The notes under the pieces are model-generated. The model saw nothing but the letters and a program-made list of their open reading frames with translations. It made no database searches and was not told the origin of the DNA. Below, piece after piece: positions 13,341-63,265 of a DNA stretch of 64,000 bases; positions within the stretch are counted from its first letter, which is position 1, and every line of letters begins with the position of its first letter. The DNA comes from Paracyclopina nana (taxonomy: Eukaryota > Arthropoda > Copepoda > Cyclopoida > Cyclopettidae): positions 11,780,001 through 11,844,000 of the forward strand of contig JAGUCH010000001.1 of assembly GCA_019096065.1 (NCBI GenBank). Reading direction: 5' to 3'. The position numbers and the translations under genes are program-made.

Positions 13341-16300
13341 TTAAGGCTGACTGGAACCGCAAGACAGTTGCTTGGCCAACTGAGAATACTTCTGGAACTT
13401 GGACTGCGCGTTCTCCTCCTTGGACTCGGTCGGGCTCTTCATCATCTTGAGGCCATCCGAGGCAGCGCTCGAGGCCGTTGATGAAGCCACGGAGGCTGCA
13501 GGATTATTAGCGGGGGAGGCCATCATCATGCCGCCATCTTTGACAAAATGCATCTTGCTTAAGTGATGGCGATAGGCGCCCTTCGATATGAACGGGGTGT
13601 CGCAAAAGGGACACTTGAGCAGGCTGTCATTCACCACTGCCTGGTTGCAGGCCCAGGAAAAGGCCAAGATGGCGCCGGGGTCCGAGGACGGACCGCCAAA
13701 GGCCGCGGAGCCGTTGTTGCTGTTGGCGTTTTTCGCGCCACTGCCCGACTTCTTCTCAGTCTTGTCGCACAGCATTTGAAGTGCGGCCAAAGGGTGGCTT
13801 TTCTTCTTCGGCTTGGCAGCCTCGGCAGCTGGCGCTTCGTCCTCGGAGGCCGCTGAAGGGGCTTCTGGAGGCTCCTCCTCTGCTGGGGTCGCCGCAGGCG
13901 AGGGCGACCTCACCACAGACGACTTTGGACTCTCGGCGGCCTCGCTGCCATGGTTTTCGTTGTTGGCAGCCTCTGCGGTCGCAGCCTCGGAGGCCGATTG
14001 CCGTTCATCTTCCTCCTCACCATCATCACCTTCTTCCTCTTCAATTTTCGACTTTTTGACTACTGAAGCCGCGAGTGGGACCTCTTCAGCTGGAGCTGGG
14101 CTCTTCGAGGCCGCCGACTTGGCCGAGGGCGGCCTCTCTGAGGCTGCTCGGAAGCGGTCAGGTGAGCTGCATTCACTGCTGTTACTTCTGGTCGTGGTCG
14201 AGGCCGCAGACGAAATGGCATGCGGAAAAAAGCCGGGTGGGAAGCCGCCCGCTGCAGCCACTGCGGCCGCCATGTGAGAGGGCGACCTGAACATGGCCAT
14301 CGGGTCCATCAACGGCTTGTTGTAGTCCACGCCCTCGTCGATGCCCAGCCGCTGCAAGATGCTCATGTTGCTATCCGGCAACCTCTTCTTCGATCCAAAA
14401 TTGTTCTGGACCATCTTCTCCAAGGAGCCCAAAATGGACTTGGGCTCATCCTCTTTGTTGGAGGCCGAAATTGCGGGTGGAGAGGGGGAAACGAGCGACT
14501 TTTTCACCATCGTCGGGGGCGACACAGAGGGCGTTCGTGTACCGGCCGAGCTCGCGAAAAAGCGAGTCAAGTCGGCCATTGAGGTCACGACAGAGGCCGC
14601 TGCCGCCGCGGAGGTCGCTGCCAACGACGACGAGGCCGGCTTCGAGGCCGGGCCAACGCACTGTCTGATGTGTTCCACAAAGAGGTGCATGAGTATCTTG
14701 TCTCCGCACTTTTCACACGAAATCCTGCCCGCTGGGTCACTCGGCTTAACTTGCCCGCTGAGCTCTTGCTGAGCCCGCTCCAGCTCCAACAGCTTCCGTA
14801 CGGGCAATGACTTTTTGCGCTTCTCCTTTTGGCCTCCAGAGGACAAACCAGGCGACGAGGAAACAGTGGGGCTGGCCATCATGCCCACAGCAGCCCGCGG
14901 ACTCGTGCTGCCCGCTCGTGCCCGCTGTTGTTGTTGGCTAGGTGGGGTCTCGTCTTGCTTGTAGTGGTTGTTCTTCACCATGTGATCGCTCAGATCCTTG
15001 AGCGAGGAGAATCCCTGGTCGCACACTTTGCAGGTCAGCACTGCGTTGACGTGGTTCTGCGACGAGGCCGCGGCCTCGGGGCTCTTCCAAGACATGAGCT
15101 GCTCCTGCGAGATCACCTTGGTGTAGTGCTTGGTCTCCTGCATATGCTTGGTCATGATGTCGAGGCTGCGGAAGCTCTCGCCGCACCACATGCACTTGAG
15201 AATGTCTCTGGTTTGCTGCTCTCCGCGGCCAAGCCACACATCTTGGCCTCGCACCAGTTTCCTCGGCATGGGCAGCTGCTCCTTCAGAATGTCCCTCGAC
15301 TTGGAGGACGTCGAGGTCGTAGAGCCAACACTCGAGGCTGGGGGCGGCCTCAGCACACCCGGTGAGGGGATTGGAGGCCGTGCAATCGAGTTTGTGGGCA
15401 TCGTCGAGGCCGGCATGGTGGGCGAGGCCGGAATCGAGCCCCCGAAGTGCTTCGTCTCCTTCATGTGAGTCGTCAAGCTCTGCAGGCTGGGGTAGCTCTC
15501 CTTGCACCAGACACATTTGAAGATCTCTTTGTTGCTTTCGGGGCCGCGATTCAGCCACTGGGACTGCCAGGCCGACGGCCTCGAGGCCTGGGCCAATCGT
15601 TGCGAAGCCGACGTTGAGGCTGCCGAGCTGACGGCGGCCAAGTTGTTGTTACCCTTGGCAATCTCGCTCATCCTTTCGAGGGGGTTTTTGGGCTCAGCAG
15701 CGGTGGCCATCTGCAGCCGGGCCAAGGTCTCGGGGGTGAGGCTGCCCGAGGCTAAAAGCGGGTGCAAGAAGTGCCACGAGTTGGCCAGAGCAGAGGCCGA
15801 CAATTTGTCATCATAGCTGAGCTTTGGGACTTTGGCGCCGGCTGGGCTGTCAAGAGCCTTTTTGGCGCCGGACAGATCCAAGGGCGACTCTGTCAGCCTC
15901 GGCGATGAGGCCGGTGAGGTCTTCACCGAGGACAGGTTAAGCACTCCGGCCAAAGCTGCCGCGGAGGCCATTGAGGCGTCCTCGTGGTCCTCGTGTTTTC
16001 GCTTCCTTACTTGAGCAAGGGGATTGATTGAGTCTCTGACGGCCTCGGAGGCCGCTGCAGCGTTGCTCTGCTGAGCAAGGAGCTGGAGTTGGGCCAGTTG
16101 CACGGCGTACAACGAGGGGTTCAACGAGAGTAGAGTGGGGTTTAAGAGGAGAGCGGGGTTGGTTTTGAGCAGGTTGCTCACCATGTCAGCCTCCGAGGTC
16201 ACTGGCATCTTGAGTAGCGGGTTCACAAGCGAGGCTGCTTGTTTCAACAAGTTGACCGCTTCATCGGCGTCCTTCTTCGTGCTGCTGAAATTCAAAATAC

Positions 16301-17443
16301 GAGTTGATGCTTTTTGTTTTCCTTTTTGCACGGGTCAACCGTTCGGTCAATTTTAAGGCTTTCGGATTCATGCGTACGACAGCCAATTTTGCCTTGAATT
16401 TCGTTGTTAATCAGATATGCGATCGCAAATTGACCTGAATGCGTTGATTTGCTCTATTTTAATTACCCGTTGGTGTGGTCGGGCTCGAGGGCCTCGAGGG
16501 TGGGCAGGGTGCCCTCCTTGTCGGTGGACGAGGCCACCGAGGCTGAGTCCGAGTTGTGATCTTGGTGCGAGGAAGGATTATTTTGTCCATTCTCGGGAGG
16601 ATTTCCACTCGCGTTGTTTTCGCCTGTGAACATTACAAATGATGAACGTTAAAAGCAATAATTCATCGTTGAGAGATGTTAATGGCCGAAAAGGAGCCAT
16701 AAAGGAGCGTGAGTCTAGAATTAGATGCAATTTCTGCTCTGCTGCAGCAAATCCCCTAGCAGCTCAATGTGGACACAAATCACGAGTGCGCGCGCGCGTT
16801 GAGGCCATAAAGGTTGTCAGGTCCGGACCATCCGTCAGTCACGGCCCGTTTGGGATGTTATGGCGCTACTTTCTCATGAAAAGCCATGAGGCCAAGGGGT
16901 GAAAGCCACTTTAATCGCAATTGCCCGAGAATTTGCCGATAAATCACCACGTGGCTCGATTGAGCAGCAATCGCGCCGATTGATGTGGCGATGGAAATGT
17001 GGTCAAAGATGCCGCGCAAACTCATCAAAATTGGTGCAAAAGTTGCGCTGAGCAATAAAACCGGAGCGATTGCGGGTCTTCTCCGTGCTCCTCGTGGGAA
17101 CAATCAGTCACTACAATAAGAAGGTCGCGATGACCTCGGACGACGATCATCTTTGCAAAGCGCGGCCTCTTTGCCAAATGGCTGTAAAAAGGCGATCGGA
17201 CCGCGTAGAGCCTCTGGCAAGCGTTTCCTTACCGTCCTCCGAGGTTGCTCCCGTCTTTTGGGGGCAGTTTTGCTTCCGCCTCCCCATTTTCTTGTCGATG
17301 AGCCTCTGTACGACTGAATCGAGGCTGCTCGAGGCCAAAGTTGCAGCGGAGGTCAAAGAGTTGGCTTCAATGGTATTGTTGTTATTGCTTGACTCACACT
17401 TGTCTCGCTCCACCTTAACAGTCATGTTTCTGACAAAGGCCAT
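13341..17443 (-). CDS. tsh: Teashirt/tiptop-type C2H2 zinc-finger transcription factor (3 coding exons)
   Basis: Coding exons, minus strand: 17443-17233, 16623-16467 and 16284-13341. Junction phases (1, then 2) match and both junctions rebuild glycine codons, giving 1103 residues. Features in order: a Ser/Asn-rich N-terminus; a PLDLS motif near 257-261, typical of CtBP recruitment; three widely spaced C-x2-C-x12-H-x5-H fingers near 380-403, 487-509 and 541-563; a C-x2-C...H...C knuckle near 646-665; an acidic Glu/Ser/Ala stretch near 870-890; and a C-terminal finger near 1014-1035. This finger type and order are diagnostic of the Teashirt family, nuclear DNA-binding repressors that act with Hox, Hth and Wnt inputs in trunk and appendage patterning. 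Teashirt and tiptop cannot be separated here. A pyrimidine tract ending in CAG just before the ATG at 17443 hints at an upstream, probably untranslated, exon. The last exon alone could start internally at 16331 (996 codons), but the phase-matched upstream exons argue against that. Confidence 0.9.
16285..16466 (-). other. Intron 2 of teashirt-like gene
   Basis: 182-bp intron with donor GTAATT after two bases of a glycine codon and acceptor TTTCAG. Reading straight through gives the alternative in-frame Met at 16331. Confidence 0.8.
16624..17232 (-). other. Intron 1 of teashirt-like gene, with two TTTATGGC-type sites
   Basis: 609-bp intron with donor GTAAGG and acceptor TTCACAG. It carries GCCATAAA at 16696-16703 and 16804-16811, both on the plus strand. 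Such sites fit a Hox/Caudal-responsive intronic element, which is inference. Confidence 0.75.
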
Positions 17444-29061: not shown

Positions 29062-29261
29062 ATCCCCACCAGAACTTAGGTTCCCGATTCGAGAACGAAT
29101 GTTACACGATTCCTCCAAAGTATGTAATCGGTAAAGAATCGTTCTACGATTTTGTCTCGATTAGTCGGTTAATTTGACTCAAAGAAATAATCGTTTATGA
29201 TTATTACTCGAATTCTTGGCAAAGAATCTTAAACACAAATCTCGATAAACATTCTTTGATG

Positions 29262-29730
29262 AATATTTCTTGACTATTCAAGAACTATTCAGTAATGTTC
29301 AATTCAACAACTTTTCAATAATGAATACTTTTTGATAATTCAAGAACTATTCAAGAACTTTCAATCATCAACTTTTCAACAATAAATTATGCTTATTTTT
29401 TCAAGAACTATTCAGTGATGTTCATTTCAGCAACTTTTCAACAACAAAAGCTTCTAGACAATTCAAGAACTATGCAAGAGCTTATGTTCAGTAGCTTTTC
29501 AATAATGAATGAAACTTGAGTATTCAATAACAATTCAGGAATGTTCATGTCAATAACTTTTCAAGAATGATTATTTTTTTCTTAGTTCAAGAACTATTCA
29601 CATACTTTTGTTCGAGAACTATTAATTATAAATACTTTTTCACAGTTTCAAGAGCTATTTTGAACTTTTAATTTCAGCAATCTTTCAATTATGTATTCTT
29701 CTTGAGCAGTCAAAAACTATTCAGTGACAC
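29262..29730 (+). repeat. Degenerate tandem array, about 61-bp period, about 8 copies
   Basis: Each unit contains TTCAAGAACTATTCA, then a GTTCA-type spacer, CAACTTTTCAA and an AT-rich tail. Copies can be followed at about 29276, 29338, 29400, 29462, 29520, 29586, 29647 and 29709. The array lies wholly inside the inverted-repeat-bounded element. Confidence 0.75.
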
Positions 29731-48927: not shown

Positions 48928-51900
48928 TTATCCTAATGATGGGAAAGACTTGTGCATGTAGGTATCCAATTGCTCTTGCAAACTCAGCATTAGCATTTGC
49001 TGTTCCTTGATTTTTGCAATCATCCTGTTCCTCTTTACAATTCTGTGCATTCTTTGGGGCTGCTTGTCAACCAGCTCATACAAAATAGCATCCCTTGAAG
49101 TTTCCCTCTCAGCTTGCAGCTTTGCATTTAATTCTTCCAGCTGTTTTTCCAGTCTTGCATTTTCAGCTTCTTTTTCAGCTGCAGCTGCCTTGATTGCTTC
49201 AGCCGCTTCTTCCAAATGCTTTAGCCTGTTTTTCAAATAGGTCTCAGAGGCTGTGGCTGCTCTATCCAATATGGCATACTCTTGTGCTAAAGTAGGCCTA
49301 TTAATATGCTCTCCAGCTTGCAAAGCATGCCTGCTCTCCTTTGTCAATTTCGTCTGCTGAATTTCTGTCCATTTTGTGAGGAGATCTTCATGCTCCATTG
49401 TTAGCTTCTCTTTTTCCCATTGAAGAAGTCTGGTGCCGCTTCTAAAATCTTTGCTCTCAGTCATAGCAGACAGTTTGGATTCGCCAAGTCTTTGGATGTC
49501 CTGATTGAGCTTGGTGATCATGGATTCAGTTATGAGAATTGATCCTGATAAGTAAGGACTCATCTTCTGTGGTTTCACTTCCAGTTGGCCATGTGGAACA
49601 GCCAATAGAATCTCGGTATTGTTCAGCTTGTAATTCCTGTCTTTTCTCCAAGTCTCTAAATTGGCTGTTGCCTCTTCCAAATCCTGAGCAGCCTTTTCAG
49701 CTATGGCATCCCTCTCACAAACAGCCATGTCAGTCTCATAAATGTCATTGTCAAGGGCTTGGATATTTTCCTCACTTACAATTTTCTTTCTTCTCAGATC
49801 GCACAAATGTTTCCAAGACTCCTCATCCACATTTTCAGGACAGTGGGTCGACCTATCAAGCTCATCAAGAGACATGGCCATTGTCACTCCGGCTGCAGGC
49901 GTTTTCTTGAGCATAGTCCCCCTGAACATGTTGCTCATTCTTTCTAGAGCTGCAGCGATTGACTTTGTCTTCAAGTCTTTGCCAGACCTTGTTGAATATG
50001 AGACTGTGGACATCGAGTCTTGACGGATGTCTTTCTTGGAGCTTGCTAAACCTACATGCTTATCCACCCCAGCTAAAGCTCCTTTTGGTCGCTTTCTGAG
50101 GCATAAGAATATTTGATTAATTATTGCCCAAAGTACCCAAACATGCAATTACCTAAAGCACTTCATTAGAGCTTCCAATTGATTAAATCCCAAGCCAGGA
50201 AATTCTTTTTTGAAGTTCTTTTCGAAGCTTTTGTCGATTTCGTACAATTGGTCTCTCTTTGCCTTTATTTCATCCAGCACTCTCCTCCCGTCAATTAAAT
50301 CTTGATCCGAAGTTTCCTTGTATTCCTCTTTTTCTCGAATTTCATTCCTAGAAAAAAGAAGCTTGTATCTGGTAGCTCTGATTTTGCAGCTGCGCTATCC
50401 AAAAAAGAACAATAGCTCTGTATCTACGATTAAGCCACCTCACTTACAAAAGACTGGATTCTTCTCTGTCGAGCTGGTCTTGAATTGCCATTCTTCTATC
50501 ATACAAAAGTATCTTGAGTTCCTCAGCCAAAATACATTTTTCAATAGCTAGCCTCATCTTGTACAGATCAAGTAGACGAGCATCAAATTGCTCTACAGCC
50601 TCGCGAATCTTACGTTTGAGCTCCACCCTGTCTACCTCCAATTGGCGTTTCCTGATCATCTTCCGCTCACTTTGCTCACTAAGAAGAGCTTCGTATTGCT
50701 CAACCGCGCTGATTTCAGCAGGGGCATAATCGACCATGGACTTTGTAGCCATGAATTCGGGCTGTGCTATATCACCCTCAACTTCAAATTCGCGGCTGGG
50801 CAATGATCTCGTTTTCTTGAATTGCTTCCTTTTAGCCTCAGCAGCTTCTTCATCCTCGATTGGCAGGTCTTCAGGAGCCACTATACAATTCAGCAAAAAA
50901 CATAATTTTTTTCAACTATCGTAAAAAGTATATGTTTTTAAAGTATTCTTCATTTGAATAGTGCTAGCAAGAAGATATTTTGTTAGCAAATAAGAAGGCA
51001 AGCAAATCGACTCGAAATTGATAAGAAAAGTACCCTGAAGAGGAGGCAAATCAAGCTCTGGGTTCTCTTTTGGCGACCACTCCAGCCTCTGTTCAATGCT
51101 ATTCATTTCTTCTTCCTCAAAATTGCCCAATTCAATAAGGACATTTTTCAAAGAGTCCCTCCAATCATTGATCTGATGCATTCTATCCTCTTTGAAATCG
51201 TACAGCTCATCAAACTTTGCGTTGAAATAGCGCTTTAGTTTTCGCACAATTTCCTGAGCAAAATCATTTCAACAAGTGTAGTAATTATTTCAAGTTGTAT
51301 CTTACTTGAAGTATAATAATTTGCTGCTTCGCCTGTCCTCTTGTGGTGACCTCCAATTGAGAATAAGGCATACATGCTGATACATCAACAAACTCGTAGC
51401 TTTTGCTGCCAAAGATTCTTTCATCAAGTGTATCGGGGCCTAAAGGCCTTCCAGGAATGGGTGGCAATTGAGGAACATTACCATGGAGATCCCCGCTAGC
51501 CTTTGCTATTTCTTTTGCTAATTTTCGCTCAGCCAAAACTTCTTCCAGCGCATCCATTTCGTCGAAAGTCATGGGCACCATTGGGTAGTTAGCCACCGAA
51601 ATCGTCTCAGTAATGCCAATGATGCTGCGCCCTTTGACCTCCATATCATCCCACACTTTTTTCCTGATCTTTTGCCCAACTTTTTGTCGGGCTAATTGCC
51701 ATGCTTTCAACTCAAACCTATATGAGGAGTAACATTAGGCTCAACCAGTTTACTCCCATTAATGTTAACACGTTACAAAATTAAGTGCTGCCAGAACGTT
51801 ACCTTAGGTCATCTTCTTTATCAAGGCCCTCGTTGACTCGACGCTGTTGCTCATCCACATCCAATTCAAACTCATGCACATCCATCCTCTCAGATTCTGG

Positions 51901-54900
51901 CAAACGGTCGTTTTCAGCCAGCAGCTCAGCAACTTTGGCTCTCATGGACTCCAACTCAGCTGACACCTCATTTATAGAGGCCTCGTACCTTTTCCTTTCG
52001 ATGGCAACTCTTGCCTCTTCTTGCTTTTCATCCCAGCTTTTGTGCTCAGGTAATGATTTAATGCTCAGTTTAGGCCTCTCAAAGAGGCTGTTAACAAAGG
52101 GCTCTGTCTTTTGAGTCAAGTTTGTCCTTGGAGAGCCCAAAAGTGGAGGGTTGGATTGGAGAAATTGAGAGGATGGCCTTCTTGACCCATCTTTAGGTTG
52201 AAACAGCTGAAGTGATCCAGTCTGATTGACTGCCAAAATGCTGCCATCTGAAGAAATGTCACACCTCCAGAGACCTCCAGTGTCATGATGGAAAAAGTGG
52301 CAGCTCAAAGATTGCGTTTTTTCTTCCAAATTGGCAGAGTGGTAAGAGAAAAATCCATCCCTTCCAAATAAAGCCAAATATCCAGCCTTAGAGCGAGCCT
52401 AATGGTAAATAGCAAATCAGCTGACAAGTTGTGTGGGTTAATTTTACTAACTTTTGTGATCTTATGCAAGTCCATTTGGTGCTCGGTGTCAGCTTTCGCA
52501 GTAGGAGTCAGCTTCGCTGCGTTGCCTTGCTCCATAACTTTGAACTTGGCCAGAATTTTCCTCCTTTGAATTACGGTGAAGAAAAATTTGGCATTTTCGC
52601 TGAGACAGATGCCGGAGCATCGCATTTTCAATTGCAGCATGCAGCTAATTTGCAAGCTTTTTTGCCCCTTATCCACCATGAAAATCGCCACCATGTCACC
52701 TGAGAACTTAACCCGTTCTCCCTCATTGATAGCACCTGGCTCTTCTGACGGCGTTGATGTTAAGCAAATGATAGTTTTGTTAACAAATGAAAGGTCCAGT
52801 AAATGGCCTTCAAATGCAGAGGAACAGCAAATTTTTAAGTACTTGTCACCATCATCTTCATCCAATTTGATTGGGAGATTAGCTAGGTCTCCTTCCAGTG
52901 ATGAGGACGAGGCTGAGCGGGCAATTTCAAAGCTAGGCTGAAATTTGGGCTTTCTAGCTCCTGTTGAACCTAAAATTCAATTTGAGATGTCGCACTTTTT
53001 GGCAACGCAATTCTTACTTTTAGCTGGTGGGGTGATTTTCTCTCCGCCAGATGTCACTTGGATGTCGCATAGAAAGATCTTGCCGAAATCAGCTCCACCG
53101 ACGACAAGAAAGTGGCCCAAATTGTCAAACTCTCCGAAATCCAATTCATGAGCATGAACGCGACTTTCATCGAAGATAGTAGCTGAGACTTCCACTATGG
53201 GCTCCCTGCTCACGTTCAGATCAACTTCCTCATCATCTCCACTGAACTCGCTATCTTCATCTGGTAATGGTGGGGGCGGCAGTATTTTAATCGATACTGC
53301 AACGCTTAAAATACGACCATCTGCCGTGAGTACGAAGAAAATGGGCAGCTTGGGATGGGGCAATAAATGCCTACACTCCATTGGTAAAGTCATGTGCCAA
53401 GCCTGGAGCAATGTTCGTGAAGGTTATTCCGTGCGTTAAAAAAGTTTTTTATGCTGCTGCTTATTACCTCTTCCTTGCTTTTCACAGAAAAAAGCTGGAT
53501 GCAATTATTGATGTCCAAAGCGGCAAAATGGCTGCTTGCAGGCTGAATGAAGGCCGCTGCAACAAACCTTTTCTTTTCTGCTCTCTCCCAAACCAATTGT
53601 GACACCACAGAATTCTCAGCTGATTGAATTTGCAAAATATTTCCCTGTTGATGGTAAATAATTAATTAGAGCGGATTGGTATGAAAATAATCCCATGCTT
53701 TTACCGATGGAGTCCATCCTATAAATCTGTAGGCAAGATGGAAATCTTGCAGATTTAAAGAGGTATGACTCAAGGCTACTTCTTTTAAGGTCGTTGCTTG
53801 GGGAAGTAGTCCTTCGATTTTGACGACAGAAATGCTATCAGGGAAAATAAGCAAGAGTCCCTCGAAATTGGCTTTAATAAAGACGTTCCTCTTGATGGGA
53901 GGCTTCAATTTTCTCTCCAGTGTCTCATCCAACAGCAAGCATTTCGTAGTTTTTTTCTCATAGTCAGTCTGAGAAGCAAACACGTTGGAGCAATATCTGT
54001 TTCTCATTCATCGGGTTTTTTACCTTGAAAATAGCCCCTTTTGAGGTCAATATGAATAGATGAGAAGGAAAGGCCCAGGTCGCTGTTATATGAGGTCCGG
54101 CCAAAGTTTCATCAAATTCTGGAATGGGCTCAGTCAAGAGCCTCATATCATTGCCACACTTTTTCACAGTCCACACAGACTAGTAGAGTACAAATGTTTT
54201 TTTTTTAAAGGAAGTGCTCAAAAAAAAGTATAAAGCTCACTCACAAGAGGCCCATTGAAGGTTTCAGTGAGCAGCAGCTTTTGTGCTTTTGGTCCGGAAC
54301 TGGGGCAAAAACTCAAATTGGTGGGTCCCTTAAATATAAGTTAAATTCATGGACTAAAATGCTATGCTCAGATTTTTCCGTATACTCCTATGGACGTTTC
54401 CATTGAATGAAGTGTGGTTCCACTCTTCCAATTCCACAAGGTAAGTTTGTAGTCTGGTACCCCCGACAGCCCGATTAAATAGCAGTCATGATTAAAGCAA
54501 AGTGCTATGTATTCCAGTTTTGCATCTCCTAGATACGCATAAATTACAATAACTTTAAGATCAGATGGGAAGCCTATTGTTGTGATTGATCTCATGTGCT
54601 TCTTTGGCATCATGGATGATAAACATTCCACTGACAAGCTTGGCGTGTGCCTTGTCGTGATACTTGTCCTTCAAGTACCGATGCAACATGGACAAGTATT
54701 TCATTTGGGTCTCTTCAATCAGTTTAAGGTCATTAAGTTCACCAATGATGAGACCATCAGTGCAAAACACCATCGTTAGAGTGATCAAAACAAGCTGAAC
54801 CTTGTCAAAATTCAAATCTTCCTCGTTCCTCAGCCAATCATTGATATTCTAAAACAATCAAGCTATCATCTTTTTCCAAGATAAAAAACTTCAGCATAAT

Positions 54901-57900
54901 TGAATTTTTCCAATGCTAGTACTTATGATTTTTGTGAGACATTATGAAAAGCTTCAATTTCTATAAAAGCTTTTTTTAAAATTAGGAAATAACCTCTGTG
55001 ATTTTTCGATGCTTCTCCTCATACTCAATGTGACGAGCCCATGGGGACGAGTAGAGAATATCGTAATTGTAGATCAAGTACTTGTCATTCAGCTTCATGT
55101 CCTCCATTTCACGGAGGACAAGCTCAACGCTGGTCGACAAATGGCGATTGGCCATGCCATAGGAGAGGAAATCGGTCATGAAAGCATCAATGTCTCCTTG
55201 CTAAACTCAAAGATCATTACAGTTGCAACGATTACAATGTAAGGATCACCTTGCAAATCAAGGACTGGTACAAGCCCACCAATCTGGACACATTGTGCCT
55301 GGCCAAAATGTGAGCATCCTTCAAATTGTGCATGTTGTGGATCCTGAACATACGGAAGAAGACCTCTGTCACCGCATACTGGTCCATGGCCTCGAAAAAC
55401 TTGACCTCTTGAAAGGAGAAAGGCCGGCCTTTGAAGCTGTGGTCAAAGCTGGACCTCATGATGGCCAAATCTGAGGCATACATTTGGTAGTAGAGCCTTT
55501 TGAAAATCTCCATGGTGACATCGTAGAGTAGCTCAGTGTGCTCCTTCTCATCTTTGCTGAAGTGGGCCACCAATGGCCTTCTCACCACAGAAGCTGCAGC
55601 CTTGCACGTGGACCTTTGAATCATTCGTTGGCACCTCTCTTCCTCTGAGAGCACCCAGCCAATTTTCATGCCAACCTCTGTGCACTTGTCAAACCTGCAC
55701 TTCTTGCAGCTTTTCCTGGATTTTGAGTCTACAGGACAGCTAGCTTGCTGGGCATCAAGGGCCACTGGGGCCACGCAACTGAACCACTTGTACTGCCTGG
55801 ACTGTACCGATCGTCTGAAGAAGCCCCTACAGGAAATGCATGTTCGGGCCCCATAATATATATGCTTGCCTGCAGGGGCAGCACACACTTTGCAAAGTTG
55901 AGGCTGCTTAATTATTGAGGAGGAGGCCATTTTCTTTATCTAGCAATTCTTGATAAGCTAAATCTCGACAAGCAAGCAAAAACCGGATTGGACGTGCTGT
56001 ACGCTAACAAATCCCTGATATTTGTTGACAATTGCCTATTTAACAATTTGCTGATCAGCCCCTCCCAGTGCAGTGGTACTACTTTGCTGGCTAATTGCGT
56101 TGTTAACTGTATCATTTATAAGCATGTCATCATAATCCTTATGACTTGCATCATTAGATAAAAGCAAAAAATGAATGTTCCAGAGCCTGATCACTCAAGA
56201 GATAACGCTACAGTGAGGTAAAAAGTGGACACTTTATTTATATGGTGGTGATTTTAAACATGCCACTTCCCATAGTGCTCAGCCAAACAGGCCAGGTCCC
56301 ACTTCAAAGTACGCCCTAGCTCGAGCGGACAAGTTGTGTAGTGAGTTTTAGATACTCGCGTTTTGAGTGAATCTTAAAGTTGAACGATGGAGCCTGATAT
56401 TTTACTTAGTGCTGCAGACGAGAGCTTCCTCGAACAACTGCTTTTGCGTCCGGATTCCGGATACTCAAGTCAACAAATCAACCCATTTGAGTGCCCAGTC
56501 TGCGGAAACGAGGCTGGGAAGCATACGCATTATGGTGGCCGAGGCTGCTCCAGTTGTAGGGCCTTTTTCCGCAGATCAGTGCAAAATCAGTCATTCGAGA
56601 AATTCAAATGCACTTCCTATTCCGGAAATGGCAGCAGGTGCAAAATCGACTCAAAATCCTGGAAATCCTGCAGGTTTTGTAGGTTTCAAAAGTGCCTTGA
56701 GAGCGGGATGAACCCTGCGTGGGTATTAAATGATGTCGAGAGGAAAATAAGGCAGGAGAAAAGGACAAAAAAGGCTGTTATCCTCCGGACTCCAGACTCG
56801 ATACTGACTGAAGATGAACTCGGCCTATTCACGCATAACAGCCAAAGATGGCGTGACCATTTCACCCAATCTTTACAAAGATTCTACGCATTTAATCCGG
56901 AGGTATTCAGGACCATGATCACATGCCTGTACCAGAGATCACTGATACCCTATGAAACTTTGATGATCATGCAGCAGACAGTGATGAGAATTGTGACCAC
57001 ATACTTTGCTGGCTCCGCCGAGATTACCAGACTCACACTGAGTGACCAGAACACAGTACTGAACACCAATGTGGCTCTCATGTGGAACACAGCCACCAGT
57101 GTGATCCTTGGGAACGTACATCAGCCTCGTGGAATTGCACTATTGATGGACAAAGTCATGAGTGACACCAGTGAGGAGTTTCAGGGACTGAGGCAAATAT
57201 TTGAGGAGCTTGATATTCAACACAACATGCCTCAGAGAGGCCTTGAGTATAACCAGGTGTACAGATCGCCATGGGCACCTAGTATCATCCTTGAAGAGAG
57301 GCACAAGGAGCTCACCAAGAAGATTGGCCAATGGCCAGTTGAAGCTTTTGAGGACAACATTGCCAAAGTTGATCCCATCATGATGTATCTTTTGTCGCAC
57401 ATTTTGCTCTATAACACAGACTTTTTGCAGCTTGAGCAGCCTGGAACTGTAGGCTCCATTCAAACCAAGTACTTGACCATGTTGCATCGCTATTTAAAGG
57501 CCAAGTTTAGAGAAGAGGCCAATAACTTGCTTGGCAGAGGAATCATGATTGCAAGCCTCACAAGAGAGTCTTACGAGATTCAGAAGAATAGGCTTCCAGT
57601 TTAAAATATTTTTGGATTAACCATTTTTTGCAACTCTTTAGCTACACTAAATAGAAATAAACCAAATTCTGGGCTTACCTTTAAGACTAGTAATGTTCAA
57701 AGGATCTGCGTAACGATACACATGTATCTGAGGCGACGGGGGTCCAATGTCACTCCAGGCCAAAATTCCGAGGTCATCACGGCCTCCAATAACCCCAACC
57801 CCTTGATTACTGTTGGGCACGAGCAGCCTCGATTTACCTGTCCTCAAAAAGACAAACTTGATGTGAGTTCGATTATGGATGGCGATGACATCCTCAGAAA

Positions 57901-58174
57901 CGGGGCAAATTGCCCCAGTGGAAATGTCCTCCACTGGTACCGTGCTTGATATTGAGTCCATGCTTGTGAAAAATGAGGACGAGCTCTTCTTCGATTGCAG
58001 CCTTGACTTTTTAGATTCTCCCACGTCATACCCATAAATGTAACCACCGTCAGCCCACCGTTTTCCTTCTAGCACAAGCTCCACCTCATTTTGGAGGGTG
58101 GGCGTGGCATCAAGAGCCTCCACACCCTCCTCTTCTCCTTCTTGAAAATCATCTTCCTCTTCCTCCTCAAACAT
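48928..58174 (-). CDS. CFAP43: CFAP43 (WDR96), axonemal WD-repeat/coiled-coil protein, 14 exons
   Basis: Exons, minus strand: 58174-57679, 54528-54386, 54328-54245, 54179-54024, 53968-53705, 53644-53468, 53402-53018, 52969-52452, 52398-51803, 51717-51306, 51253-51034, 50880-50448, 50347-50153, 50095-48928. All 13 introns are GT-AG with matching phases, giving 1748 aa (human CFAP43 is about 1665). Residues about 20-800 are WD-like blades, with matches such as ILAWSD...IHVYRY...LKG, YKLTLWNW and SVWTVKK. The rest is long coiled coil with KVWDDMEVKGRS and a C-terminal SFPSL. CFAP43 and CFAP44 form the tether of inner-arm dynein f/I1 in motile axonemes. CFAP44 is the main alternative, but the IHVYRY/LKG spacing and the MEVKGRS motif favour CFAP43. 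The start is an acidic MFEEEEEDD; a donor near 58443 hints at a 5' untranslated exon. Intron 1 hosts two nuclear-receptor genes. Confidence 0.93.
54561..55930 (-). CDS. Nuclear receptor A (divergent, lineage-specific type), 3 exons
   Basis: Exons 55930-55250, 55200-54994 and 54848-54561; both introns are phase 0 and the protein is 391 aa. The DNA-binding domain spans residues 13-88, with zinc ligands at 13, 16, 31, 34, 52, 65, 75 and 78. The P-box is CISCRGFFRR instead of the usual CEGCKGFFRR. The D-box loop C52-x12-C65 is longer than the usual x5. The ligand-binding region includes FFEAMDQYAVTEVFFRMFRI, SPWARHIEYEEKH and YLSMLHRYLKDKY, paralogous to NR-B (SPWAPSIILEERH; YLTMLHRYLKAKF). It should act as a nuclear transcription factor; ligand and targets are unknown, and I cannot assign a standard NR subfamily. 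The start has a good context (AAAATGG). The gene is nested on the same strand inside CFAP43 intron 1, and its stop lies 32 bp before the host acceptor. Confidence 0.9.
55931..56386. promoter_or_regulatory. 456-bp divergent intergenic region between the two nuclear receptors
   Basis: The two receptor start codons face away from each other across this interval, so the promoters are adjacent or shared. On the minus strand TATAAA lies at 56115-56120, about 185 nt from the NR-A ATG. On the plus strand an AT-rich stretch, TTTATTTATA, lies near 56233. Neither is validated. Confidence 0.5.
56387..57604 (+). CDS. Nuclear receptor B (divergent, lineage-specific type), intronless
   Basis: Single open frame of 405 aa with start context AACGATGG. 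The DNA-binding domain covers residues 36-108, with zinc ligands at 36, 39, 54, 57, 75, 85, 95 and 98. The P-box is CSSCRAFFRR and the D-box loop is C75-x9-C85 rather than the usual x5. A hinge rich in Arg/Lys (IRQEKRTKK, 121-129) and a ligand-binding domain follow. NR-A is clearly a paralogue: shared HYGGRGC/YYGARTC, SKSWKSC/SKSRKSC, SPWA and LHRYLK motifs. The protein ends KNRLPV without a recognisable helix-12 activation motif. It lies antisense within CFAP43 intron 1. Lack of introns, against two in NR-A, suggests a retrocopy or intron loss. C-x-S-C-R-A receptors are known from lineage-specific expansions in crustaceans and hexapods; the exact family is unassigned. Confidence 0.92.
   Translation: MEPDILLSAADESFLEQLLLRPDSGYSSQQINPFECPVCGNEAGKHTHYGGRGCSSCRAFFRRSVQNQSFEKFKCTSYSGNGSRCKIDSKSWKSCRFCRFQKCLESGMNPAWVLNDVERKIRQEKRTKKAVILRTPDSILTEDELGLFTHNSQRWRDHFTQSLQRFYAFNPEVFRTMITCLYQRSLIPYETLMIMQQTVMRIVTTYFAGSAEITRLTLSDQNTVLNTNVALMWNTATSVILGNVHQPRGIALLMDKVMSDTSEEFQGLRQIFEELDIQHNMPQRGLEYNQVYRSPWAPSIILEERHKELTKKIGQWPVEAFEDNIAKVDPIMMYLLSHILLYNTDFLQLEQPGTVGSIQTKYLTMLHRYLKAKFREEANNLLGRGIMIASLTRESYEIQKNRLPV
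57656..57661 (+). terminator. Poly(A) signal of nuclear receptor B
   Basis: AATAAA 51 nt after the stop codon at 57604. Cleavage 10-30 nt downstream would fall on the antisense of the CFAP43 exon 1 donor, at about 57671-57691. Confidence 0.65.
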
Positions 58175-62074: not shown

Positions 62075-63265
62075 TCCTACCCTTGGATCGACAACGGACC
62101 GTCCTTGGATAGACTACGACGAACCGGCCTTGGATCGACGAAACGGATCGTCCCTGGATCGACTACTACTACTGACAGTCCCCTGATCGACGAGACGGAT
62201 CATCCTTGGATCGATTGCTAGAACACACAGTCCTTGGATAGACCAGGACTGACATGTATTTGGTTAGACACGAAAAACGAACTGTACTTGGATCGACGGG
62301 ACGAATCATCCTTGGATCGACTATGAGAACAAACAGTCCTTGGATCGAATAACGGATCATCCTTGGATAGACAAAAGACGGGTAATTCTTGCATCGACGG
62401 GACGAATCAGCCTTGGATCGACTGGGAAAACAGACTGTGCTTGGATCGAGTGGGAAAACAGACTGGGCTTTTGGGTGAAAATTACTTTAAGACATCTGAT
62501 GCTCCAAAAGCTGATTGGACCTCATGAGTTAGGTCCCACAAAGTCCAAAACCAGTCCGAACTCAAAAACTTTACTACACAGTGAGGTACACTACAGGCCA
62601 AAAACGCGGCTACCGCACCCATAGTCGTAAAACAAGGCTACACTGTAAAAATTACTTTGAGGCATCTCATGGCCCAAAAGCTGATTGGACCTCATGTGTT
62701 AGGTCCCAGAGAGTACAAAACCAGCCCTAACTCAAAAACTTAACAACACGGTGCGGTACGCTAGAGGCCAAAAACGCGGCCGCATCTGTATAGGCATGGA
62801 TCAAATGCAAGCAAAACTTAATTTTTTTTTCTAAAATTACAAAATATATCGCAATCTATCCAAGGACAGTCTGTTCTGGTAGTCTATCCAAGGACAGTCT
62901 GTTTTGACAGTCGATCCAAGGACAGCTCGTTCCAGTCTATCCAGGGACAGTTTGTCATTGCAGTCTAACTTAGTACAGTACGTTCTAGCTGTTGATCCAA
63001 GTACGATCCGTTTTTCGATGCAGGGACAGTCTGTTCTGTCAGTCTATCCAAGCACAGTTCGTTCTAGTCGATCCAGGTCCTGCTAAGTCATAGTAGTCGA
63101 TCCAAGGACTATCCGTTTCATTGATCCAAGGACTGTTCGTCTTCATAGTCGATCCAAGGACGATCCGTCTCGTCGTTCCAGGGAGTATGGGTTCTGTCTG
63201 TCTATCCAAGGACGATCCGTTGCAGTCTATCCAGGGACAGTATGTCCTAGTCGATCCAAGTACGG
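62075..63265. mobile_element. Foldback-like element with minisatellite inverted arms
   Basis: Left arm, about 62081-62470: some 15 units of 20-30 bp with the core CCTTGGATCGAC. Right arm, about 62851-63265: some 15 units with the reverse-complement core GTCGATCCAAGG. Between them sit two direct copies of about 177 bp. Inverted arms built of short direct repeats are the hallmark of Drosophila FB-type foldback elements. There is no transposase frame. Apparent open frames here are translations of the repeat. Confidence 0.7.
62469..62790 (+). repeat. Two direct copies of an about 177-bp unit inside the foldback-like element
   Basis: Copy 1 starts about 62469 and copy 2 about 62646. They share AAAATTACTTT, CCAAAAGCTGATTGGACC, TTAGGTCCCA, AACTCAAAAACTT and GGCCAAAAACGCGGC, differing at scattered positions. 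Confidence 0.85.

Follow-up and report, generated by a model that had tools for sequence, protein, structure and literature searches.

Intronic genes account for ~6% of Drosophila genes and often lie on the strand opposite to their host (PMC3786989). In this work we describe an arrangement of this type in a 64,000-nucleotide stretch of the copepod Paracyclopina nana (contig JAGUCH010000001.1, positions 11,780,001 to 11,844,000; hereafter the window), in which the first intron of the cilia gene CFAP43 holds two predicted nuclear receptor genes, NR- on the strand of CFAP43 and NR+ on the opposite strand. The 2mit gene in Drosophila timeless2 (PMC3786989) is similar to this locus in being a complete protein-coding gene in a host intron and, like NR+, in being on the opposite strand; unlike that intron, the CFAP43 intron has two guests, one on each strand and head to head, with only 32 and 74 bp (base pairs) to spare, and the gene families are different. 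At H13/Mcts2, nested transcription is reported to promote intronic polyadenylation (poly(A)) of the host (PMC13309782), and interference has also been reported for human nested genes (PMC3192792). H13/Mcts2 shares with the CFAP43 locus a gene nested in a host and the same kind of interference that we infer below, but it is a mammalian locus with one imprinted guest under methylation control, whereas the copepod locus has two receptors, for which interference is predicted from sequence. It has been proposed that donor and acceptor are drawn closer by stretches of complementary sequence within large introns (PMC2773006), the same approach of splice sites that is suggested here for CFAP43 intron 1; those stems are in mammalian introns of >50 kb and consist mainly of short and long interspersed elements (SINE/LINE), whereas the CFAP43 stem would consist of the coding ends of two diverged paralogs. 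Nested genes are already known and intron stems that bring splice sites together have been proposed, while this CFAP43/receptor locus appears new: among the open-access literature matches listed, none appeared to describe CFAP43 with nested receptors or a receptor pair in an intron.

Two predicted nuclear receptor genes in CFAP43 intron 1

The CFAP43 model has 14 exons running from 58174 to 48928 on the minus strand and encodes 1759 amino acids (aa) with a single terminal stop, the exon joins being predicted. Both hallmarks of CFAP43, the N-terminal WD region and the C-terminal CC_Cfap43 coiled coil, are present in one gene, with the last exon matching Pfam CC_Cfap43 at 148 bits (cut-off 27) and the solved CFAP43 chain 9fqr_H8 at E 3.1e-20. 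The features of the locus, from the start of CFAP43 to its end, are as follows.

57679..58174, minus strand: CFAP43 exon 1, start codon at 58174, protein alignment to solved chains
54529..57678, minus strand: CFAP43 intron 1, 3150 bp, GTAAGC..TCTAG, GT-AG, phase 1
56387..57604, plus strand: NR+, intronless, single intact open frame, 405 aa
55931..56386, no strand: inter-receptor gap, 456 bp separating the start codons of NR- and NR+, presumed shared promoter region
55250..55930, minus strand: NR- exon 1, DNA-binding domain and beginning of ligand-binding domain
54994..55200, minus strand: NR- exon 2, ligand-binding domain
54561..54848, minus strand: NR- exon 3, holds the stop codon, 32 bp ahead of CFAP43 exon 2
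54386..54528, minus strand: CFAP43 exon 2, protein alignment to solved chains
48928..54328, minus strand: CFAP43 exons 3-14 (12 exons), stop codon 48930-48928, CC_Cfap43 domain, match in PDB

The original prediction, made from the letters of the window, had described the junction of exons 1 and 2 as phase-exact and inside a conserved WD region, and this is borne out by the alignments. The donor (AAAG/GTAAGC, following 57679) and the acceptor (GTATCTAG/GAG, preceding 54528) leave the reading frame open over the junction, and phmmer aligned the protein to solved CFAP43 chains over the join (9d2f_Y, E 7e-10; 9fqr_H8, E 9.1e-10; 8j07_i6, E 3.1e-9) gap-free, with 'lkgdakleyialcfnh' against 'lkgdilldytllcfsy'. 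The contrast in length drawn between intron 1 and the other introns, given earlier as 48-153 bp, also holds in the present model, where introns 2-13 measure 57, 65, 55, 60, 65, 57, 53, 85, 52, 153, 58, and 57 bp, a range of 52-153 bp.

The further claim, that this intron contains two complete receptor genes on opposite strands, agrees with the intact frames and domain content of the predicted genes. NR- encodes 391 aa in 3 exons with an intact frame, interrupted by predicted introns of 49 and 145 bp, and the two genes are arranged head to head, with start to stop of both contained in 54561-57604, wholly inside CFAP43 intron 1. The zf-C4 DNA-binding domain was found in both receptors at 57.9 and 57.8 bits (cut-off 21.1), scores that exclude a chance origin of the two frames. 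The ligand-binding domains of NR- and NR+ are very diverged in sequence. A profile of five subfamily members, which include the genomic paralogs L027 and L028 in versions with 9 and 11 extra intron-derived residues, matched solved chains of EcR (the best, E 3.7e-6), DAF-12, and RXR; the best 60 of 69 matches were all receptor-named, and most of them cover just 50-75 positions of the 286 in the profile. Two of the five alignment members were matched by Pfam Hormone_recep (best E 0.00083), NR+ not being one of them, and neither NR+ nor NR- gave a match to it with an E of 0.1 or less. No classical activation helix was seen at the C-termini of the two receptors when these were inspected by eye. 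The C-terminal ends themselves are alike, reading RLPI in NR-, RLPV in NR+, and RLPI in a third paralog, L019, and because of this resemblance NR- very likely stops before CFAP43 exon 2.

Transcript ends and expected interference with CFAP43

The receptors fill the intron nearly to its edges, with 74 bp left between the NR+ stop codon and CFAP43 exon 1, and 32 bp between the NR- stop codon and exon 2. Together, the two spacers amount to 106 bp, within the size of the other CFAP43 introns, which favors an insertion into a pre-existing short intron. We consider it probable that CFAP43 intron 1 is the home of two independent divergent receptor genes, inserted into a formerly short intron, with overlap of and interference between the transcripts. 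The 3′ ends of the two receptors bear on this directly, and two candidate signals were located.

57656..57661, plus strand: AATAAA, probable NR+ poly(A) signal, with an expected cleavage zone that would overlap the CFAP43 donor
54508..54513, minus strand: AATACA, possible weak NR- poly(A) signal in CFAP43 exon 2, its role being presumed

The distance from stop codon to AATAAA is 52 nucleotides (nt) in NR+, 42 nt in L019, and 4 nt in L027, and on the strand of NR- the first AATAAA is 4292 nt past the stop, within CFAP43. The lack of a nearby AATAAA is not peculiar to NR-, since the motif is also absent from the 1000 nt after the stop of L028. With no AATAAA for ~4.3 kb, the NR- mRNA probably ends inside CFAP43, at a weaker signal such as AATACA, or runs on.

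These features suggest a course of events in which CFAP43 intron 1 was most likely short at first and a receptor-bearing block, or the receptors one by one, would have landed in it. NR- and NR+ are probably transcribed from the 456-bp gap between them, as a common promoter region; the NR+ transcript would end at its own AATAAA, adjoining the CFAP43 donor, with antisense contact at that point, while that of NR- probably ends within CFAP43, giving a sense overlap of the two transcripts. Active transcription of either receptor should interfere with full-length CFAP43, as expected from the position of NR- 32 bp from exon 2 and of the NR+ AATAAA beside the CFAP43 donor. CFAP43 itself would remove the whole insert by normal splicing, possibly aided by pairing of the receptor ends, as folding predictions suggest. 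The coupled or mutually exclusive expression of CFAP43 and the receptor pair put forward in the original prediction, for example in testis, is conceivable. With one guest, NR-, left hardly any space for a 3′ end of its own, the tight head-to-head pair would be a well-defined natural case in which to study how two transcription factors and a cilia gene interfere with one another.

Complementary intron ends and predicted fold

The C-terminal codons of the two receptors form an imperfect inverted repeat across the intron, with the following arms.

57461..57597, no strand: donor-side arm, NR+ C-terminal codons, imperfect
54568..54707, no strand: acceptor-side arm, NR- C-terminal codons, imperfect

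The arms match in two blocks, of 83 nt (72%) and 18 nt (89%), nearly in register, and coding ends that match at both ends of the intron are present because NR- and NR+ are paralogs in opposite orientation. In the minimum-energy structure of intron 1 with 20 nt per side (3190 nt), 106 pairs connect the 5′-most 259 nt to the 3′-most 231 nt, the outermost pair being in the flanking exons. Random segments of 3190 nt (n = 32), drawn from the window outside the locus with overlaps allowed and base composition unmatched, gave 0-86 end pairs, all below the 106 of the intron, and synonymous codon shuffles (n = 32) gave 5-104. The fold energy of the real intron, -974.4, was the lowest of 33 when ranked with these shuffles, the next being -972.6, and the duplex between the final 150 coding nt of NR- and those of NR+ was predicted at -111.1 kcal/mol compared to a shuffle mean of -82.0. 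This suggests that intron 1 may be looped out by pairing of its ends, which, if true, would offer a straightforward explanation of how CFAP43, with its otherwise short introns, tolerates such an insertion.

Alternative explanations and origin of the receptor pair

Several results weigh against two independent genes removed as one intron with the help of their paired ends. The best synonymous shuffle, with its 104 end pairs, came close to the real intron, 9 of 500 such shuffles attained the duplex energy, and the case for end pairing exceeding a by-product of paralogy is a weak one in these models; since the shuffles come so close, protein homology accounts for the greater part of the pairing, and silent sites add a slight excess. 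The donor and acceptor are themselves partly paired in the fold, which could also hinder splicing. In addition, a codon-usage gene finder, when free to pick the start, preferred a path that fused NR- to CFAP43. This last result speaks for the explanation that NR- serves, additionally or even principally, as an alternative CFAP43 5′ end in a fused or two-cistron mRNA, as do the 32 bp between the NR- stop and exon 2 and the distant same-strand AATAAA. We regard such a fusion as rather unlikely, however, as the stop codon of NR- comes after a C-terminus common to the paralogs, the fused path takes a cryptic donor, loses the receptor end, and skips CFAP43 exon 2, and the missing signal, shared with L028, is not special. 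Still less credible is that exon 1 and the remainder of CFAP43 are not one gene or that the receptor block is misplaced in the assembly. An intron ~20 times the length of the gene's next longest one might raise that suspicion, but the phase matches exactly across it, the protein alignment continues over the join, and the whole window is free of N, which together disfavor misassembly. There is likewise no second CFAP43 start in the 92-Mb genome, where the first 249 residues used as query gave 3 matches, all of them exons of this locus; by this search, CFAP43 is a single locus.

A further explanation is that the pair arose in place by inverted, head-to-head duplication inside the intron. NR- and NR+ are paralogs (E 7e-50; 405 alignment columns, 30% identical), their C-terminal codons resemble each other to an unusual degree (nucleotide identity of 0.605 in the last block, the highest of 10 pairs, followed by L027/L028 at 0.585), and an earlier tree built without L027 and L028 placed NR- with L019 (93/90), beside NR+. 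The relatives elsewhere in the genome (L019 at C1:8.917 Mb; L027 at C3:1.10 Mb; L028 at C1:10.93 Mb, ~0.9 Mb from the window) nevertheless make this origin improbable. With L027 and L028 included, NR- clusters with L027 and L028 at a support of 99/99, and forcing NR- and NR+ together costs 33.6 log units (p-AU 0.000289), so that this clade is rejected in a tree in which long branches are present. Both ligand-domain introns of NR-, in phase 0, are at alignment columns common to L027 and L028, while in L019 and NR+ the coding sequence continues there without a break, and the shared introns support the grouping of the three genes independently of the tree. The closest relative of NR+ among the seven compared proteins is L019, at 189 bits compared to 160 for NR-, and L019 is also its best genome-search match after NR+ itself. 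A DNA-binding-domain tree of nine rows did not resolve NR-, NR+, L019, and a further paralog, L038. Because the tree and the intron positions tie NR- to L027 and L028, the two genes did not arise by a recent inverted duplication; the comparisons indicate instead that NR- and NR+ come from different sublineages and that they either form an old pair or were brought together. A target-site duplication at the intron ends was considered and rejected, the longest common word being the 8-mer TCTTAAAG (57686, 54560), near chance by rough estimate.

The similarity of the C-terminal codons gives a hint of gene conversion between the two receptors. Identical codons make up 12 of 22 in the last block (binomial 0.08) and, in a slightly different C-terminal block, 14 of 23 compared to 8.7 expected (binomial 0.021). 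A protein-level window scan, which used the L027 and L028 versions with 9 and 11 extra residues, was unexceptional for conversion, 168 of 500 permutations reaching the observed value, and a tree of the last exon alone placed NR- with L027 and L028, weakly (76/84). A doubtful extension of insertion into a short intron is that a divergent paralog pair acts as a self-closing insert, in which the donor would fold to the acceptor so that a 3-kb intron is spliced like one of ~100 bp, and local conversion between the C-terminal exons of NR- and NR+ would keep the stem matched despite the old, separate sublineages.

Nuclear receptors across the genome

A search of the 92-Mb genome gave 73 zf-C4 matches, some of which are separate exons of one gene. 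This is suggestive of an expansion of the nuclear receptor family, with many diverged receptors as in Caenorhabditis (PMC3517510). Examined by eye, the list of 73 matches contains three pairs of separate receptors <5 kb apart, namely the present pair and two same-strand pairs (C8:1.265 Mb and C2:1.310 Mb), and NR-/NR+ is the only head-to-head pair in it. Several of the matches inspected carry diverged CxSCRAFFRR or CxSCKAFFRR signatures.

For the paralogs L027, L028, and L038, a small sample of the 73 matches, no host gene split across the receptor was seen in flanks of 9.3-9.9 kb per side. In this check at most nine of the longest open reading frames (ORFs) per piece were listed and 10 were run through Pfam; 6 of these 10 flanking ORFs had a Pfam match at E up to 0.001, two of the six being under the curated cut-off. 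The coding end of L028 (C1:10931500-10934200) appears to overlap an F-box frame on the opposite strand, tail to tail (8914-9876 of L051).

Other features of the window

Outside the CFAP43 locus, a 997-aa open frame at 13341-16334 on the minus strand encodes spaced C2H2 fingers and looks like a Teashirt-type zinc finger gene; the surrounding sequence is GC-rich, reaching 61%. A tandem array of a 62-bp unit, in 7.5 copies with AT-rich surroundings, occupies 29259-29724. At 62081-63264, runs of 23-28-bp minisatellite units are built on CTTGGATCGAC in one array (62081-62470) and on the reverse complement of that word in another (62851-63264), so that the two arrays are inverted relative to each other.

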